Below are positions 4,209 to 63,511 of a stretch of DNA of 64,000 nucleotides, piece by piece (position 1 is the first letter of the stretch; each line of letters begins with the position of its first letter). Position numbers and translations under genes: made by a program. The notes beneath the pieces were generated by a model. That model was given only the letters and a program-made list of their open reading frames with translations. It was not told the origin of the DNA and ran no database searches. The DNA is from Methylobacterium organophilum (GTDB lineage Bacteria; Pseudomonadota; Alphaproteobacteria; Rhizobiales; Beijerinckiaceae), in the NCBI RefSeq assembly GCF_022179465.1, contig NZ_BPQV01000013.1, forward strand, positions 1 to 64,000. Direction: 5' to 3'.

Positions 4209-5196
4209 CGGCCCCTTGGAAAGTCACGTTGGCTTGAGGCTCCGCCCGTAGGGCCGGCGGCAGGATTTTCGGCAACATCCCCGGGCGCCAGCGCCGGTGC
4301 ATCCAGAGCCACTGGCCCGGATTCTCGCGGATCCAGGACTCGACCACCTCGGTCATCGCCTGCATCGCGCCCTGGACGTCGACGAGCCCCTCCGCGTCCC
4401 GCGGCAGGTCGAGGGGCGGGGTCAGCTCCAGCAGGAACCGGGAATTCGGGTGACGCACGACGCGGGCGCCGTGGACCGGGCAATCGTGGTGGCGGGCGAG
4501 CTTGCCGAGCAGCGGGTTCACGAGCACCGGCCGCCCGAAGAAGGTGACCACGACGCCGCGGGTGAAATGCTGGTCGATGAGCTGGCCGAGATGGCCGCCG
4601 CGCTCCACCACCCCCTGCATCGCGAAGACCGCGCCCGTGCCGGAGGCGGCCAGCCCGCCCATGGTCTTGCGCCGGACCTCGGCGACGAGCTGAGCGGCAG
4701 CCGGGTTGTTCGGCGGCCGGAACACGGCGGTGGTCTCGAGCCCGAATTTCTGCGCGCAGATCGCCGGCAGCTCCCAATTGGCGAGATGGGCGGAGAAGAC
4801 CAGGCCCGGCCTGCCGTCGTCGCGCAGGGCGTAGAAGTGGTCGATGCCCTTCACCGACATGCGCTGCGTCTCGGCGCTGTCCGGGTCGTAATCGAAGATC
4901 GTGTCGAGATGGGCGTATTCGGCGCCCGTGCGGCCGAGATTGTCCCAGGCCTGCGCCGCGAGCGCCCGAAGCTCGGCCTCGGAGAGGTCGGGATAGGCCG
5001 CGCGCAGGTTGGCGAGCGCCGTGCGGTGCGAGGGCAGGAACGGCCCGATGCTGCGGGCGAGCCAGCCGCCGAGGTCGCTCGCCCGGTTGGTGCCGAGGGC
5101 GCGGGCGAGCCAGAACAGGCCGCGGATCAGCGGGATCGTGGCCAGGCCCGCAAGACGCGGGAGCTGTCGCCTCAGGATCAGCGCGAGGCGGAGCAC
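4192..5196 (-). CDS. lpxXL: LpxL/HtrB-family lipid A acyltransferase (LpxXL)
   Basis: Inner-membrane acyltransferase predicted to move a very long chain (27-hydroxyoctacosanoyl-type) acyl group from AcpXL to lipid A. The 334-residue protein has an N-terminal hydrophobic anchor, the catalytic HX4E motif HLANWE (His137, Glu142), and the C-terminal LpxL signature WIRENPGQWLWMHRRW. Assignment as LpxXL rather than a lauroyl transferase rests on its place at the end of the acpXL-fabZ-fabF-fabF-adh operon, as in rhizobia. It lies 75 nt after the dehydrogenase gene. Confidence 0.9.
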   Translation of the reverse strand: MLRLALILRRQLPRLAGLATIPLIRGLFWLARALGTNRASDLGGWLARSIGPFLPSHRTALANLRAAYPDLSEAELRALAAQAWDNLGRTGAEYAHLDTIFDYDPDSAETQRMSVKGIDHFYALRDDGRPGLVFSAHLANWELPAICAQKFGLETTAVFRPPNNPAAAQLVAEVRRKTMGGLAASGTGAVFAMQGVVERGGHLGQLIDQHFTRGVVVTFFGRPVLVNPLLGKLARHHDCPVHGARVVRHPNSRFLLELTPPLDLPRDAEGLVDVQGAMQAMTEVVESWIRENPGQWLWMHRRWRPGMLPKILPPALRAEPQANVTFQGADARVS

Positions 5197-5271
5197 GAAA
5201 GACTCATGGAAAACGTGTCTCGGAAAGAACGAGGTCGCGCATAAATCATTTCCCGCATCCGCGCGAGACGA

Positions 5272-58814: not shown

Positions 58815-59765
58815 TCACCCGTTCGGCAGATGCGTCGCCAGGGCCTCCAGCACGGCCATGCGCACGGCCACGCCCATCTCGACCTGCTCGCGGATCAGCG
58901 ACTGCGCCCCGTCGGCGATGTCGGAGGCGATCTCGACGCCCCGATTCATCGGGCCGGGATGCATCACCAGCGCGTCGGGCTTGGCGAGGGCGAGCTTGTC
59001 GCCGTCGAGTCCGTAATAGCGGAAATACTCCTTCACGCTGGGCACGAAGGAGCCGTTCATCCGCTCGCGCTGCAGGCGCAGCATCATCACGATGTCGCAG
59101 CCCTTCAGGCCCTCGCGCATGTTCGTGAAGACCTCGACGCCGAAGCGCTCGATGCCGGTGGGGAGCAGCGTGGAGGGGCCGATCACCCGCACCCGAGCGC
59201 CCAGCGCCTGGAGCAGGATGATGTTGGAGCGCGCCACCCGCGAATGCAGGACGTCGCCGCAGATCGCGACCTGCAGCCCCTCGATCCCGCCCTTGTTGCG
59301 GCGGATCGTCAGGGCGTCGAGGAGCGCCTGGGTCGGGTGCTCGTGGGCGCCGTCGCCCGCATTCACCACCGAGCAATCGACTTTGCGGGCCAGCAGATGC
59401 ACGGCGCCGGCGGAATGGTGGCGCACCACGATGATGTCCGGCCGCATCGCGTTCAGCGTCGCGGCGGTGTCGATCAGGGTCTCCCCCTTCTTCACCGAGG
59501 AGGAGGCCACCGACATGTTCATTACGTCGGCGCCGAGGCGCTTGCCCGCCAGCTCGAACGAGGATTGCGTGCGCGTCGAGGGCTCGAAGAACAGGTTGAT
59601 CTGCGTGCGGCCCCGCAGGACGTTGCGCTTCTTCTCGACCTGACGGGACAGGGCGACGGCGTCGTCCGCCCGGGCGAGCAGAGCCTCGATATCCGGGCGT
59701 GACAGCCCCTCGATGCCGAGCAGGTGCCGGTGGGGGAAGCTGTGCGGTGCGGGCGCTGCGCTCAT
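58815..59765 (-). CDS. pyrB: aspartate carbamoyltransferase catalytic subunit
   Basis: 316 residues; makes carbamoyl-aspartate for pyrimidine synthesis. The carbamoyl phosphate loop [20 protein letters not shown] is intact, with [25 protein letters not shown] and [12 protein letters not shown] of the aspartate domain. No pyrI; the neighbouring pyrX probably forms the holoenzyme. First gene of the pyrB-pyrX-plsY run. Confidence 0.97.
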
Positions 59766-60015
59766 GACAGGCCGCAGGCTATAGGCGGCGGATCCGAGGG
59801 CGGCAAGCAGGCGAAGCGGCCGGATCCCACAAGGGGGAAAGAACCGCTTTCCCGGCCGCGGCTGACGGAAAGTTGAATCCCGCCCCCGGCAGCTTGCGAG
59901 AAAATTTTTTGAACGATCCGCGGCCGAGTCCGTTGGCGCTCAGGTCCGGCAGGCCTGTGCGCCCTGCCGGGTTGTTCGCACGCGACGCACGTCCACGTCA
60001 TTCACGAGGTGCTTC

Positions 60016-60291
60016 ATGAACACCCGCCTTCTGATCGCCGCCGGCGCGCTTTCGCTCGGTCTCGGCCTCGCCTCGACCGCCTCCGCCCAGCAGATGCAGC
60101 CCGGCATGCAGCCGGGCATGGACGGCCAGATGCAGCAGGGCCAGATGGGCAACGAGGACATGGCCCAGCGCCCGATGAAGAAGAAGTCCATGAAAAAGAT
60201 GAAGAGCAACAAGAAGATGATGCGCTCCAAGAAGCGCATGAACTCCGGCTCCGGCATGGAGCAGGGCTCGGACATGAACAGCGGCATGTAA
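60016..60291 (+). CDS. small secreted Met/Lys-rich protein
   Basis: 91 residues: a clean Sec signal peptide (MNTRLLIAAGALSLGLGLAS, cleavage near ASA/QQ at residue 24) and a mature chain of about 67 residues containing 15 Met (over 20%). The first part is Gln/Pro/Gly/Met (QQMQPGMQPGMDGQMQQGQM), followed by a Lys/Met core (MKKKSMKKMKSNKKMM). It is not a recognised enzyme. It lies upstream of the cytochrome b561-molybdopterin oxidoreductase pair, which invites comparison with MrpX, the Met-rich oxidant scavenger that works with YedY-type reductases. Copper binding is another possibility. A terminator follows. Confidence 0.75.
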   Translation: MNTRLLIAAGALSLGLGLASTASAQQMQPGMQPGMDGQMQQGQMGNEDMAQRPMKKKSMKKMKSNKKMMRSKKRMNSGSGMEQGSDMNSGM

Positions 60292-60330
60292 CGAAACCCG
60301 CGCGCCGTCGAACACGTAATCGATGGTGCT

Positions 60331-60361
60331 CGCCCGTCCGGGACGACCGGGCGGGCGTTTT
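60331..60361 (+). terminator. terminator after the Met-rich protein gene
   Basis: An 11-bp stem (60331-60341 with 60347-60357, one G-U pair) and a 5-nt loop, followed by TTTT at 60358-60361. It separates the Met-rich gene from the cytochrome b gene, so read-through or a second promoter is needed for the latter. Confidence 0.82.
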
Positions 60362-60387
60362 CGTGTGGCAGGGAGGCGAGGAACTTC

Positions 60388-61260
60388 GTGGCGGGATCTG
60401 CGACACCGGCGATGCCGGAGGCCATCGAGACGGTGCGGCGACACTGGGTCTTCCGGCACCCGCTGACGATCCGGCTCGCGCACTGGATCAATCTCGCCTG
60501 CCTCGCCATCCTGCTGATGAGCGGGCTGCAGATCTTCAACGCCCATCCGGCCCTCTACTGGGGACAGGCCTCCACCTTCGACAAGCCGTTCCTCGCCATC
60601 ACCGACGACACCACGCCCGACGGTACGCCGCGGGGCGTCGTGATGCTCGGCGACCGGACCTTCGACACGACCGGCTGGCTCGGCCTCTCGCGCGACCAAG
60701 GCGAGGCGGCAAGCCGCGCCTTCCCCGCCTGGGCGACCCTGCCGGCCAACCAGGATCTCGCCACCGGACGGCGCTGGCACTTCCTGTTCGCCTGGGCCTT
60801 CGTGATCAACGGGCTGATCTATCTCCTCTACGGCCTCGGCAGCGGGCAGCTGCGCCGCCGGCTGATCCCGGACGGCGACCAGATCCGCGACATCGGCGGC
60901 TCGATCCGCGAGCACCTGACGCTGCACTTCCCGGAAGGCGAGGAGGCCAAGCGCTACAACGTGCTGCAGAAGCTCACCTATCTCGTCGTGGTGCTCGTGC
61001 TGCTGCCGCTGATGCTGCTCACCGGCCTCGCCATGTCGCCGGGCTTCGACGCGATTTTCCCGCCCATCGTCGACCTGTTCGGCGGCCGGCAATCGGCCCG
61101 CTCGATTCACTTCCTGTCGATGAACCTGCTCGTGCTGTTCACGATCGTGCACGTGCTGCTCGTGCTGGTCTCGGGTCTGTTCAACAACCTGCGGGGCATG
61201 ATCACCGGCTGGTTCGTGATCGAGAAACGACGGATCCCGGCCGGGGGAGAGAACCGATGA
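60388..61260 (+). CDS. cytochrome b561-type membrane subunit
   Basis: 290 residues (GTG start; GGAGGCGAGGAA upstream). Inner-membrane b-type cytochrome with His in predicted TM helices: RLAHWINLACLAILLMSG, GRRWHFLFAWAFVINGLIY, and IHFLSMNLLVLFTIVHVLLV. Between helices 1 and 2 lies a periplasmic stretch of about 85 residues. The stop overlaps the start of the molybdopterin enzyme gene, so the pair is coupled. Likely transfers quinol electrons to or from the lipid-anchored molybdoenzyme. Confidence 0.9.
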   Translation: MAGSATPAMPEAIETVRRHWVFRHPLTIRLAHWINLACLAILLMSGLQIFNAHPALYWGQASTFDKPFLAITDDTTPDGTPRGVVMLGDRTFDTTGWLGLSRDQGEAASRAFPAWATLPANQDLATGRRWHFLFAWAFVINGLIYLLYGLGSGQLRRRLIPDGDQIRDIGGSIREHLTLHFPEGEEAKRYNVLQKLTYLVVVLVLLPLMLLTGLAMSPGFDAIFPPIVDLFGGRQSARSIHFLSMNLLVLFTIVHVLLVLVSGLFNNLRGMITGWFVIEKRRIPAGGENR

Positions 61261-62285
61261 GCCGCCGCCTGCGCCTCCCCCCGCCCCATCGCCGGGGTTT
61301 CCTCACGGGCGTCGCGGGCCTTCTCGGCGCGACCGCGCTCACCGGCTGCGACCAGATCGCGAAGGCGCCCTGGGGCCGGCGCAGCCTGGAAGCCGGCGAG
61401 GACGCCAACCTGTTCGTGCAGCGCCTGCTGCTCACCCCCGCCTCGCTAGCGCGCGAATTCCCGGAGAGCGCGATCTCGGCCTATTTCAAGCCGAACGGCA
61501 CGGTCGACCCCGAGGACAGGGACTACAAGGCGCTCGCCGCCAAGAGCTTCGAGGGCTTCCGCCTGGAGGTGAGCGGCCTCGTCGAGCACCCGCAGAGCCT
61601 GTCCCTGTCGGAGCTGCGTGGCCTCCCGTCGCGCACGCAGATCACCCGGCACGATTGCGTGGAAGGCTGGAGCAGCATCGGCAAATGGACCGGCGTGCCG
61701 CTCTCCGAGCTGCTCAACCGGGCCGGGCTCAAGCCCCAGGCGCGCTACATCGTATTCCATTGCTTCGACACGATGGACTATGCCGGCGGCGGCCTCGAAG
61801 GCGGGGATCAGGCCGGCAACGAATCCGGGCAGGACGCGCCGGCGGCCGAAAACAAGCCGAAGGCGGCTGCCGGCCTGGCCTGGGGCGGCGGTGACACCGG
61901 ATCCTCCGACGCCAAAGCCGCCGACACGAAGGCCACCGGCCATCCCGGCCTGTCCGAGAAGCGCGCAGGCCAGGAGGACCGGACCACGGAGACGGCCTCT
62001 GGCGAGGGCGACGCCCCGCAGGCAGGCCGGCCGATCCGTTACTACGAGAGCATCGATCTCACCGACGCGTTCCACCCGCAGACGATCCTGGCCTATGCCA
62101 TGAACGGCCAGACCCTGCCGGTCGCCCACGGCGCCCCCCTGAGGCTGCGCCTGGAGCGCCAGCTCGGCTACAAGCAGGCCAAGTATATCCGCCGCATCGA
62201 GGTGGTGGAGTCGCTCGCCAAGCTCGGCGACGGCAAGGGCGGGTACTGGGAGGACCGGGGCTACGAGTGGTATGCGGGGATCTGA
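61257..62285 (+). CDS. Tat-exported, lipid-anchored molybdopterin oxidoreductase (sulfite oxidase fold)
   Basis: 342 residues. The N-terminus HRRGFLTGVAGLLGATALTG then C is a Tat signal with a lipobox (Cys31). The sulfite oxidase-type molybdopterin domain holds the Mo-ligand Cys134 in TRHDCVEGWSSIGKWTGVPL and continues with YYESIDLTDAFHPQTILAYA and PLRLRLERQLGYKQAKYIRR. Between DTMDYAGGG and RYYESIDL is an insertion of about 78 residues (182-258) rich in Gly, Ala, Asp, Glu and Lys, not seen in the usual family layout. Pairs with the b561 gene. Substrate unknown; methionine sulfoxide reduction is a candidate by analogy. Confidence 0.88.
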   Translation: MSRRLRLPPPHRRGFLTGVAGLLGATALTGCDQIAKAPWGRRSLEAGEDANLFVQRLLLTPASLAREFPESAISAYFKPNGTVDPEDRDYKALAAKSFEGFRLEVSGLVEHPQSLSLSELRGLPSRTQITRHDCVEGWSSIGKWTGVPLSELLNRAGLKPQARYIVFHCFDTMDYAGGGLEGGDQAGNESGQDAPAAENKPKAAAGLAWGGGDTGSSDAKAADTKATGHPGLSEKRAGQEDRTTETASGEGDAPQAGRPIRYYESIDLTDAFHPQTILAYAMNGQTLPVAHGAPLRLRLERQLGYKQAKYIRRIEVVESLAKLGDGKGGYWEDRGYEWYAGI

Positions 62286-62362
62286 GTGCCCGCGGCGCTT
62301 TGGCCGGATGCGTCCCCGTGCCATGAGGTCGGGACCCGAAGCGTAGCCGGACACCGCGACTG

Positions 62363-63511
62363 GTGCCTTCTTTCAAAAGCCGCCTCGCGCCCGTGGCCTG
62401 GGCATTCCTTGCTGGCCTCCTCGCGATGCCGGCGATGGCGTACGATCCGCGGATCCTCCCCGCCCATCCCCGCTACACCCGCAACGCCGCCTGCCCCGAC
62501 GTCACGGTGGTGGCGCCCGCGCCGCACCCGGGCACGCATCCCCTCGACGGCAAGATCAGCCCGGATCCGGCCGAGTCGCCGATGAGCCAGGGCGACAGCG
62601 CGATCTGCTTCGCCTACGCCACCGCCGACATGATCTCCCAGCGGGTCGGCCGCACGGTCTCGGCCCTGGACGTGGCGACGCGCTACTATTTCGCCGATCC
62701 GGCGCGGCTCGCCGCCTCCCGCGATCCCGCCCTGCGCCGCTATCTCCGGGAGAACCCCGACACGCTTGCCGAGATCGCCACGAGCCGCAACGACACGGAT
62801 GTCAGCAAGGACGGCAATCCCGGACGCCTCGCCTATTTCGACAAGCTGGAGGACGGGCAGGAAGACGCGGCCGCCCTCCTCTACAATGTCGGCGGCCTTT
62901 GCGAGGACCGCGACCTGCCCTCCTTCGACGGATACGGCCAGCACCAGAAGTTCCTACGGGCCCTGCGCTGGCGCGCCCGGGTGGTGGCGCCGAAGCAATG
63001 CTGGCGCAGCCTCGCCGGTACGGTCGAGAAACTGCGCAGCGCGAAAACCGACGCCTTCAATGCCGGCTGGCTCGCCCATGTCGAGGCCAGCTGCCGCCGC
63101 CGGCCCCTGCCGGTGCCACTGCTGCCGGTCTCCTACCGGGTCGCCGACAATCAGCTCGACTTCATGGACCGGCTGGAGCGGGGGCAGCCGCCGACGCGGC
63201 GGCAGACCGACCGGCTGCTCGCCATGGTCGATTACGCCCTCGATCACGGCCGCATCCCGACCGTCGGCTACAGCTGGTACGTGCTGGAGGACCGCGACCC
63301 GAAGGACCCGGACCTCGCCGCCGACCATTCGAGCCCGATCCTGGCGCGGCGAAGCGTCGAGGGCCGCTGCCAGTACCATCTCCAGGACAATACGGGCGAG
63401 TACTGCGCCCGGATGCGCCCGGGCATCCGCGAGCGTTGCGATCTCGGCCGCGTCTGGCTGGAGGAGGACGAGTTGCGCCGCTCCCTCTACAGCGTGATCT
63501 ACCTGCGCTGA
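62363..63511 (+). CDS. secreted papain-like fold protein (putative cysteine peptidase)
   Basis: 382 residues (GTG start) with a Sec signal (LAPVAWAFLAGLLAMPAMA). I do not recognise a named family, but papain-like landmarks are in order: Gln76 and Cys82 in SQGDSAICFAYATADM, then LDHGRIPTVGYSWYVLED, His322 in DHSSPILARR, and Asn343 in CQYHLQDNTGEYC. This matches the Q-C-H-N arrangement of C1-type peptidases. Several further cysteines could be disulfides. It follows the molybdoenzyme gene by 77 nt on the same strand and may be cotranscribed. Confidence 0.65.
   Translation: MPSFKSRLAPVAWAFLAGLLAMPAMAYDPRILPAHPRYTRNAACPDVTVVAPAPHPGTHPLDGKISPDPAESPMSQGDSAICFAYATADMISQRVGRTVSALDVATRYYFADPARLAASRDPALRRYLRENPDTLAEIATSRNDTDVSKDGNPGRLAYFDKLEDGQEDAAALLYNVGGLCEDRDLPSFDGYGQHQKFLRALRWRARVVAPKQCWRSLAGTVEKLRSAKTDAFNAGWLAHVEASCRRRPLPVPLLPVSYRVADNQLDFMDRLERGQPPTRRQTDRLLAMVDYALDHGRIPTVGYSWYVLEDRDPKDPDLAADHSSPILARRSVEGRCQYHLQDNTGEYCARMRPGIRERCDLGRVWLEEDELRRSLYSVIYLR

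Follow-up and report, generated by a model that had tools for sequence, protein, structure and literature searches.

A methionine-rich exported peptide beside a cytochrome b561 and a molybdenum lipoprotein: a candidate envelope methionine redox system in Methylobacterium organophilum

Three neighbouring genes on the forward strand of a 64,000-nt stretch of the Methylobacterium organophilum genome (contig NZ_BPQV01000013.1; hereafter the window) encode a short exported peptide rich in methionine (Met), a cytochrome b561 and a molybdenum (Mo) enzyme of the sulfite-oxidase fold (SUOX, PF00174). We consider it probable, at roughly 0.6, that this trio constitutes a three-part methionine redox system of the cell envelope. 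The exported Met- and Lys-rich peptide would be sacrificed in the periplasm to hypochlorous acid (HOCl) and similar oxidants, whilst the b561 would draw electrons from the quinol pool and hand them via its haems to the Mo enzyme. The latter, putatively lipid-anchored on the periplasmic side of the inner membrane, would turn the Met-sulfoxide of the peptide, and perhaps that of other proteins, back to Met. The donor (quinol), the substrate (Met-sulfoxide), the direction in which the enzyme works and the role of the peptide as a sink are predictions from sequence, as are high expression and stress induction via EcfG.

The peptide gene (60016..60291, +) encodes 91 aa and is followed after 96 nt by the b561 gene (60388..61260, +; 290 aa, GTG start), which overlaps the gene of the Mo enzyme (61257..62285, +; 342 aa) at ATGA (61257-61260). 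The preliminary description of this locus had placed a Met-rich exported peptide upstream of a b561 and a twin-arginine translocation (Tat) lipoprotein of the SUOX fold, and the open reading frames (ORFs), Pfam matches and lipobox confirm that arrangement. By eye, the N-terminus of the peptide is signal-like; cleavage after ASA (residue 24), also judged by eye, would leave a mature chain of 67 residues with 15 Met, 10 Lys, no Cys and no His. As an exported, short Met/Lys-rich chain it resembles the MXKDX proteins (NCBIfam TIGR02953), matching that model at 22.5 bits (E = 8e-5), below the curated cut-off of 41 bits. Nei-Gojobori dN/dS ratios (nonsynonymous over synonymous substitution rates) for 78 pairs of 13 sequences, from which one near-copy was omitted (L102, of L101), had a median of 0.13 across the full-length peptide and 0.15 across its mature chain. 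The signal was weaker in the 12 pairs that include the window peptide (0.36-0.57 whole, 0.36-1.03 mature). Given these ratios, and orthologues in 13 of 80 named loci, the peptide ORF appears to be more than a chance reading frame.

The Mo enzyme matches PF00174 (119.5 bits) in two stretches, which flank a low-complexity insert at approximately residues 175-255. It carries a twin arginine (RR) at residues 12-13, a lipobox, LTGC, ending at Cys31, and the Mo-ligand motif RHDCVEGWS. In an alignment of 41 rows, which start at the match start rather than the gene start, Cys31 and HDCVEGWS are invariant, and R12, R13 and D32 are each present in at least 90%. In E. coli, lipoproteins with an Asp at position +2 stay in the inner membrane, and the Asp at this position in the Mo enzyme would thus put it beside the b561. 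The insert itself (61780-62020) varies among Methylobacterium-type members; other relatives, at about 258 aa, have a short insert or none. The enzyme shares with MsrP both the Mo-ligand Cys in CVExWS and the Tat RR, its CVEGWS resembling the CVEAWS of MsrP and unlike the CSGN of the SoxC-type paralogue in the same genome. The closest solved structure is 1xdq (YedY; E = 3e-14). Nonetheless, its score against the MsrP model (NF003767) was 90 bits against a cut-off of 207, with E. coli MsrP (504 bits) and the MsrP of the same genome (412 bits) as positive controls. Scores against SorA, SorT and SoxC were 59, 36 and 59 bits (cut-offs 600, 570 and 420), and the SoxC-type paralogue, as a positive control, reached 574 against 420 bits. 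The MsrP model (best E = 3e-30) matches every one of the 41 rows, as do those of SorA (2e-22), SoxC (9e-21) and SorT (1e-16; best E in each case).

The b561 scored 82.6 bits against PF01292, above the gathering score of 30.1 bits, which places it within that family. It has four hydrophobic segments (34-52, 132-150, 199-217 and 247-265) with a first inter-helix loop of approximately 80 residues. His32, His131, His241 and His255 are conserved in 97-100% of 80 aligned rows, and we infer that these four bind two haems. The family is PF01292 and not the PF01794 of MsrQ; NF003831 was absent from its NCBIfam matches, and BLASTP against E. coli MsrQ gave E = 0.71. The features by which the preliminary description had set this pair apart from MsrPQ, namely a b561, a lipobox and a large periplasmic loop, are therefore real, and they are conserved, as the invariance of Cys31 in the 41 rows exemplifies.

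Whether the peptide is kept beside the oxidoreductase in relatives had been set in advance as the test of the idea, and the idea passed it, peptide and pair recurring together both within the genus and across Pseudomonadota. Among 112 genomes of the genus, 31 contained peptide matches (E<=1e-2) and 89 contained SUOX matches (E<=1e-30). In at least 26 of the 31, peptide and SUOX matches share a contig and a strand, with the peptide approximately 1.0-1.1 kb upstream. Strong peptide matches (E<1e-6) were upstream of a SUOX match in 24 of 25 cases, the exception being G223, where only 1.5 kb of contig is left downstream and holds no listed SUOX match; at least two of the six weaker matches (G210 and G246) were likewise upstream of a SUOX match, among the matches listed. 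Across 149 sampled genomes of the family, the peptide was matched in 7 and the SUOX protein (E<=1e-20) in 47. The b561 gene lies directly upstream of the SUOX gene in 79 of the 80 named loci; in the remaining one, L148, only 31 nt of sequence precede the SUOX match. With a fixed filter, a Met-rich exported ORF was found beside the pair in 19 of the 80. Thirteen of these are orthologues of the window peptide (L101-L112 and L117) and six are unlike it, lying either upstream of the b561 (L121, L173 and L180) or downstream of the SUOX gene (L167, L172 and L178). A looser filter, covering 1.3 kb before and 1 kb after the cassettes in L113 and above, yielded nothing beyond the seven already found there; a match in L169 (antisense, 5 Met) was dropped as chance. 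The peptides of L167, L172, L178 and L180, from Rhizobium, another member of the Rhizobiales and an Acetobacteraceae metagenome-assembled genome, are of a different Met-rich exported type which contains Cys.

Further evidence comes from the MXKDX family at large. Evenly drawn, overlapping samples of 297 order genomes and 398 phylum genomes were searched with TIGR02953 (E<=1e-5), and matches were found in 38 and 40 genomes, respectively. These gave 63 distinct MXKDX loci of approximately 10 kb each, where the contig allowed, which were searched by tblastn with the b561 and SUOX proteins of the window. A b561-SUOX pair was found beside the MXKDX peptide in 28 of the 63 loci (11 of 39 in the order sample, and 17 of the 24 further loci that the phylum sample contributed). 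By comparison, 20 control regions, taken from 20 of these genomes on the same contig 0.3-1 Mb away, gave no match to any query. The predicted recurrence of Met-rich peptides beside the oxidoreductase therefore extends beyond the genus. Moreover, all 28 pairs are on the strand of the peptide, 17 in the order peptide-b561-SUOX and 11 in the order b561-SUOX-peptide, with gaps between matches of 100-390 nt in 27 loci and of 1003 nt in L274. The pair is distant in 13 of the 28, where the identity of the best b561 piece is 25-34% (E = 1e-13 to 1e-26). All 28 SUOX proteins contain RH[DI]CVEGWS, followed by IGxW in 27 and by IAKW in L244; an RR and a lipobox are present in 24, with starts chosen by script for the RR, the starts of the other four being uncertain. 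A query with E. coli MsrQ found no match in any of the 63 loci at E<=1e-3, although a single query may miss a distant MsrQ. A match to an extracytoplasmic function (ECF) sigma factor, with a query from L236, was present in 10 of the 28 pair loci, 3 of the 35 others and none of the 20 controls; the published BcrX locus likewise has an ECF sigma factor.

A closer inspection of MXKDX loci without the pair revealed a second kind of neighbour. A motif of MsrA occurs in six of the 63 stretches, all without the b561 pair, and in one of the 20 controls. L233 has the order MXKDX-MsrB-MsrA, with MsrB identified by Pfam and MsrA by its motif; L247 has MXKDX-MsrA, identified by Pfam. The location of MXKDX peptides near MsrA/MsrB or, in Brucella, near MsrQP suggests a part in methionine-sulfoxide recycling. 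Among the 67 nearest neighbours of the 35 unpaired loci, two were MsrA by Pfam; the commonest families were DctP (8/67) and DUF6481 (7/67), with no obvious meaning. The loci with a DUF6481 neighbour (L211, L213, L216, L217, L219, L224 and L271) have peptides of one family (f36), the loci being assigned by their identity to its first row. In four of the six loci with an MsrA motif (L221, L231, L235 and L289), a response regulator or histidine kinase separates the motif from the MXKDX peptide, possibly representing another regulated methionine-sulfoxide module.

On a tree of 73 SUOX-type proteins, the label of an adjacent peptide (37 rows) needs 10 changes, compared with 24.8 in shuffles; the count was 8-10 in bootstraps, and five changes are forced by starred branches. 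Since presence of the peptide was the reason for including 28 of the 37 labelled rows, the count comes from an unfair sample, in which gains are indistinguishable from losses. The tree nevertheless indicates that the link between peptide and pair has been made or lost repeatedly. Two MsrP rows fall outside the others, on long branches flagged as unsure.

Two elements around the peptide gene point to its own regulation. A box resembling promoters of the general stress response (EcfG-like), TGAAC-N16-CGTT, lies at 59910..59934 (+) and begins 106 nt before the ATG of the peptide. In all 14 Methylorubrum-type loci (the window, L101-L112 and L117) a TGAAC-N16-[CG]GTT box is present at -104 to -115, in the GGTT form in one (L111); the same scan found none in the three other loci with an upstream peptide that were tried (L121, L173 and L180). 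According to PMC7083833, the EcfG consensus is GGAAC-N16-CGTT, with a nearly invariant AAC and a flexible -10 whose variants include GGTT. GAAC-N16-CGTT alone occurs three times in the window against an expectation of 0.9, and because 8 of 100 shuffles reach three, the claim of an EcfG box rests on its conservation rather than on a single match. Between the peptide and b561 genes is a predicted intrinsic terminator (60331..60365, +), absent from the preliminary description and identified in a hairpin scan (at 60331-60357) as a GC-rich hairpin of 11 pairs followed by TTTT. The hairpin was found with a T-bearing tail in 13 of the 14 Methylorubrum-type loci, the tail being weak in some; in L117 the hairpin is present by eye, with a poor tail. 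No sigma-70 promoter was found in 59700-62500. The ECF16-type motif of the Brucella paper, GTAAC...CGAA, was not seen upstream of the peptide, by eye only, as no scan was made for it. Given the conserved terminator and the EcfG-like box, the peptide gene probably forms a unit of its own that is induced by stress. A simple three-gene operon was rejected on account of the terminator, although some read-through may occur.

Elsewhere in the same genome there is a canonical MsrP (on C8, 412 bits) and an MsrQ-like protein of the ferric-reductase family (on C4; PF01794, 53 bits; MsrQ by eye). The trio is thus an added system and not a replacement. The genome also contains a second MXKDX-like Met-rich peptide (G000:C11:98284-98505; L236 at approximately 4985-5206, -), after which an ECF sigma factor and an anti-sigma factor (NrsF) are encoded, and a matching MXKDX-sigma-NrsF group is found in G130, of the same genus (L230).

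Several observations weigh against the three-part system. The window peptide is under the MXKDX cut-off, and the conserved predicted terminator splits it from the b561. Adjacency within the genus is largely one inherited site beside pyrB, which is present in 22 of the 34 peptide-match loci (L040-L073) and adjoins the cassette in 38 of the 80 named loci, whether the peptide is there or not; genus adjacency was therefore rejected as independent evidence. In the family outside the genus, none of four weak peptide matches (E = 2e-4 to 9e-3) was beside a SUOX match, among the matches listed. The peptide is optional, with 61 of the 80 named cassettes lacking a Met-rich exported ORF under the fixed filter, and the pair must consequently have a wider or different substrate. 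Across Pseudomonadota, 29 of the 63 MXKDX loci have neither the b561-SUOX pair nor an MsrA motif, and the link to MsrA is not convincing by count (6/63 versus 1/20). The terminator, the peptide-less cassettes and the shared pyrB site would all be expected if the pair were an oxidoreductase for another substrate, such as a small sulfoxide, an N-oxide or a sulfite-like compound, and the peptide an independent stress protein which merely shares its regulation or locus. We regard this as unlikely, though the most serious of the alternatives. It sits poorly with the 28 of 63 MXKDX loci in which peptide and pair are neighbours on one strand, in one order or the other, an arrangement seen in none of the 20 controls, and with the Met-rich peptides of other sequence that lie before or after the pair. 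Moreover, in L065 (G249) peptide and b561 are found together with no pyrB within the fetched 3.3 kb.

Met-rich periplasmic proteins are known ligands of Cu(I), and with 15 Met in 67 residues the peptide could instead chelate periplasmic copper(I) or another metal, the redox pair guarding against metal-driven oxidation. The sigma-F regulon of Caulobacter, which includes a gene annotated as YedY, responds to chromium and cadmium, according to PMC3511200. However, the peptide has neither His nor Cys, the known or likely partners of such peptides are Met-sulfoxide reductases, and no copper family was among the 25 listed of the 58 Pfam families for the 67 neighbours of the 35 unpaired MXKDX loci; a metal chelator is thus quite improbable. 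That the locus is simply MsrPQ with an MrpX that has diverged is very improbable indeed. MsrP is the best NCBIfam match of the enzyme and YedY its nearest solved sequence, but the score of 90 bits falls far short of 207, and the PF01292 partner has no similarity to E. coli MsrQ by BLASTP. On these scores membership of MsrPQ was rejected. In addition, a canonical MsrP is encoded elsewhere in the genome, and the MsrP rows are placed outside on the tree, albeit on unsure branches. What fails by score is the family assignment, and the function may still be similar. Taken together, the interpretation of the preliminary description, that a lipid-anchored Mo enzyme with a b561 partner could reduce Met-sulfoxide in a sacrificial peptide, is partly supported: its genomic part is strengthened, and its chemistry is predicted.

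Directly downstream of the trio, at 62363-63511 (+), an exported-looking protein of 382 aa contains SQGDSAICFAYATADM, which by eye resembles the active site of papain-like cysteine peptidases. It had no Pfam family above cut-off and no NCBIfam match. Of the 80 named loci, which reach approximately 4 kb past the SUOX gene, only L117 contained a piece of it (71 aa, at the end of the locus).

MXKDX is a named peptide family on which the literature searched contains little; a function is given in PMC8315932. The present data tie the family to a defined Mo lipoprotein and b561, with MsrA/MsrB and MsrPQ as alternative neighbours, and so offer a hypothesis on oxidant defence in the envelope, as well as a possible alternative to MsrQ for bringing electrons to Met-sulfoxide. 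With roughly even odds, there is an MsrQ-independent second route throughout Pseudomonadota, in which electrons would pass from quinol through b561 and a lipid-anchored Mo enzyme to disposable Met-rich peptides of the MXKDX type. This route would have been coupled to, or uncoupled from, the peptide several times, and the shared function of the MXKDX family would be that of rechargeable oxidant sinks. No literature joining a cytochrome b561, an enzyme of the SUOX fold and Met-rich peptides was found, in a search mostly at the level of titles and the openings of abstracts. Methylorubrum is a tractable leaf bacterium.

One of the nearest known systems is that of Azospira suillum, where MrpX, reportedly described by Melnyk in 2015 (a study cited in PMC8315932), is said to be a sacrificial Met-rich peptide which is oxidised and then recycled via YedYZ. 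There, as here, an exported Met-rich peptide is found beside a Mo enzyme of the SUOX fold and a haem membrane protein. In the window, however, a b561 (PF01292) takes the place of YedZ/MsrQ, the Mo enzyme carries a Tat signal together with a lipobox, and the peptide gene lies between a promoter-like box and a predicted terminator of its own. E. coli MsrPQ likewise combines a SUOX-fold Mo enzyme containing CVExWS with a haem membrane partner. E. coli MsrP (334 aa, CVEAWS, 504 bits) is exported by Tat, and MsrQ is defined by PF01794 and NF003831; none of the 13 annotated features surrounding the E. coli genes is named as a Met-rich peptide. SorA, SorT and SoxC have the SUOX fold (PF00174) in common with the window enzyme, whose chain is shorter than those models and whose ligand motif differs from that of the SoxC-type protein of its own genome. 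BcrXQP of Brucella melitensis also resembles the trio, with an MXKDX repeat peptide and a Mo Met-sulfoxide reductase pair, to which an ECF sigma/anti-sigma pair is added; according to PMC8315932, this MXKDX-MsrQ-MsrP operon is induced by HOCl and contributes to HOCl resistance. The Brucella genes are, in that same paper, MsrQ/MsrP and one transcript under BcrS, whereas the window has the b561 pair, an EcfG-like box and no adjacent sigma gene. On the strength of these comparisons, the trio is best described as a variant of the MrpX/MsrPQ kind with a b561 in the place of MsrQ.

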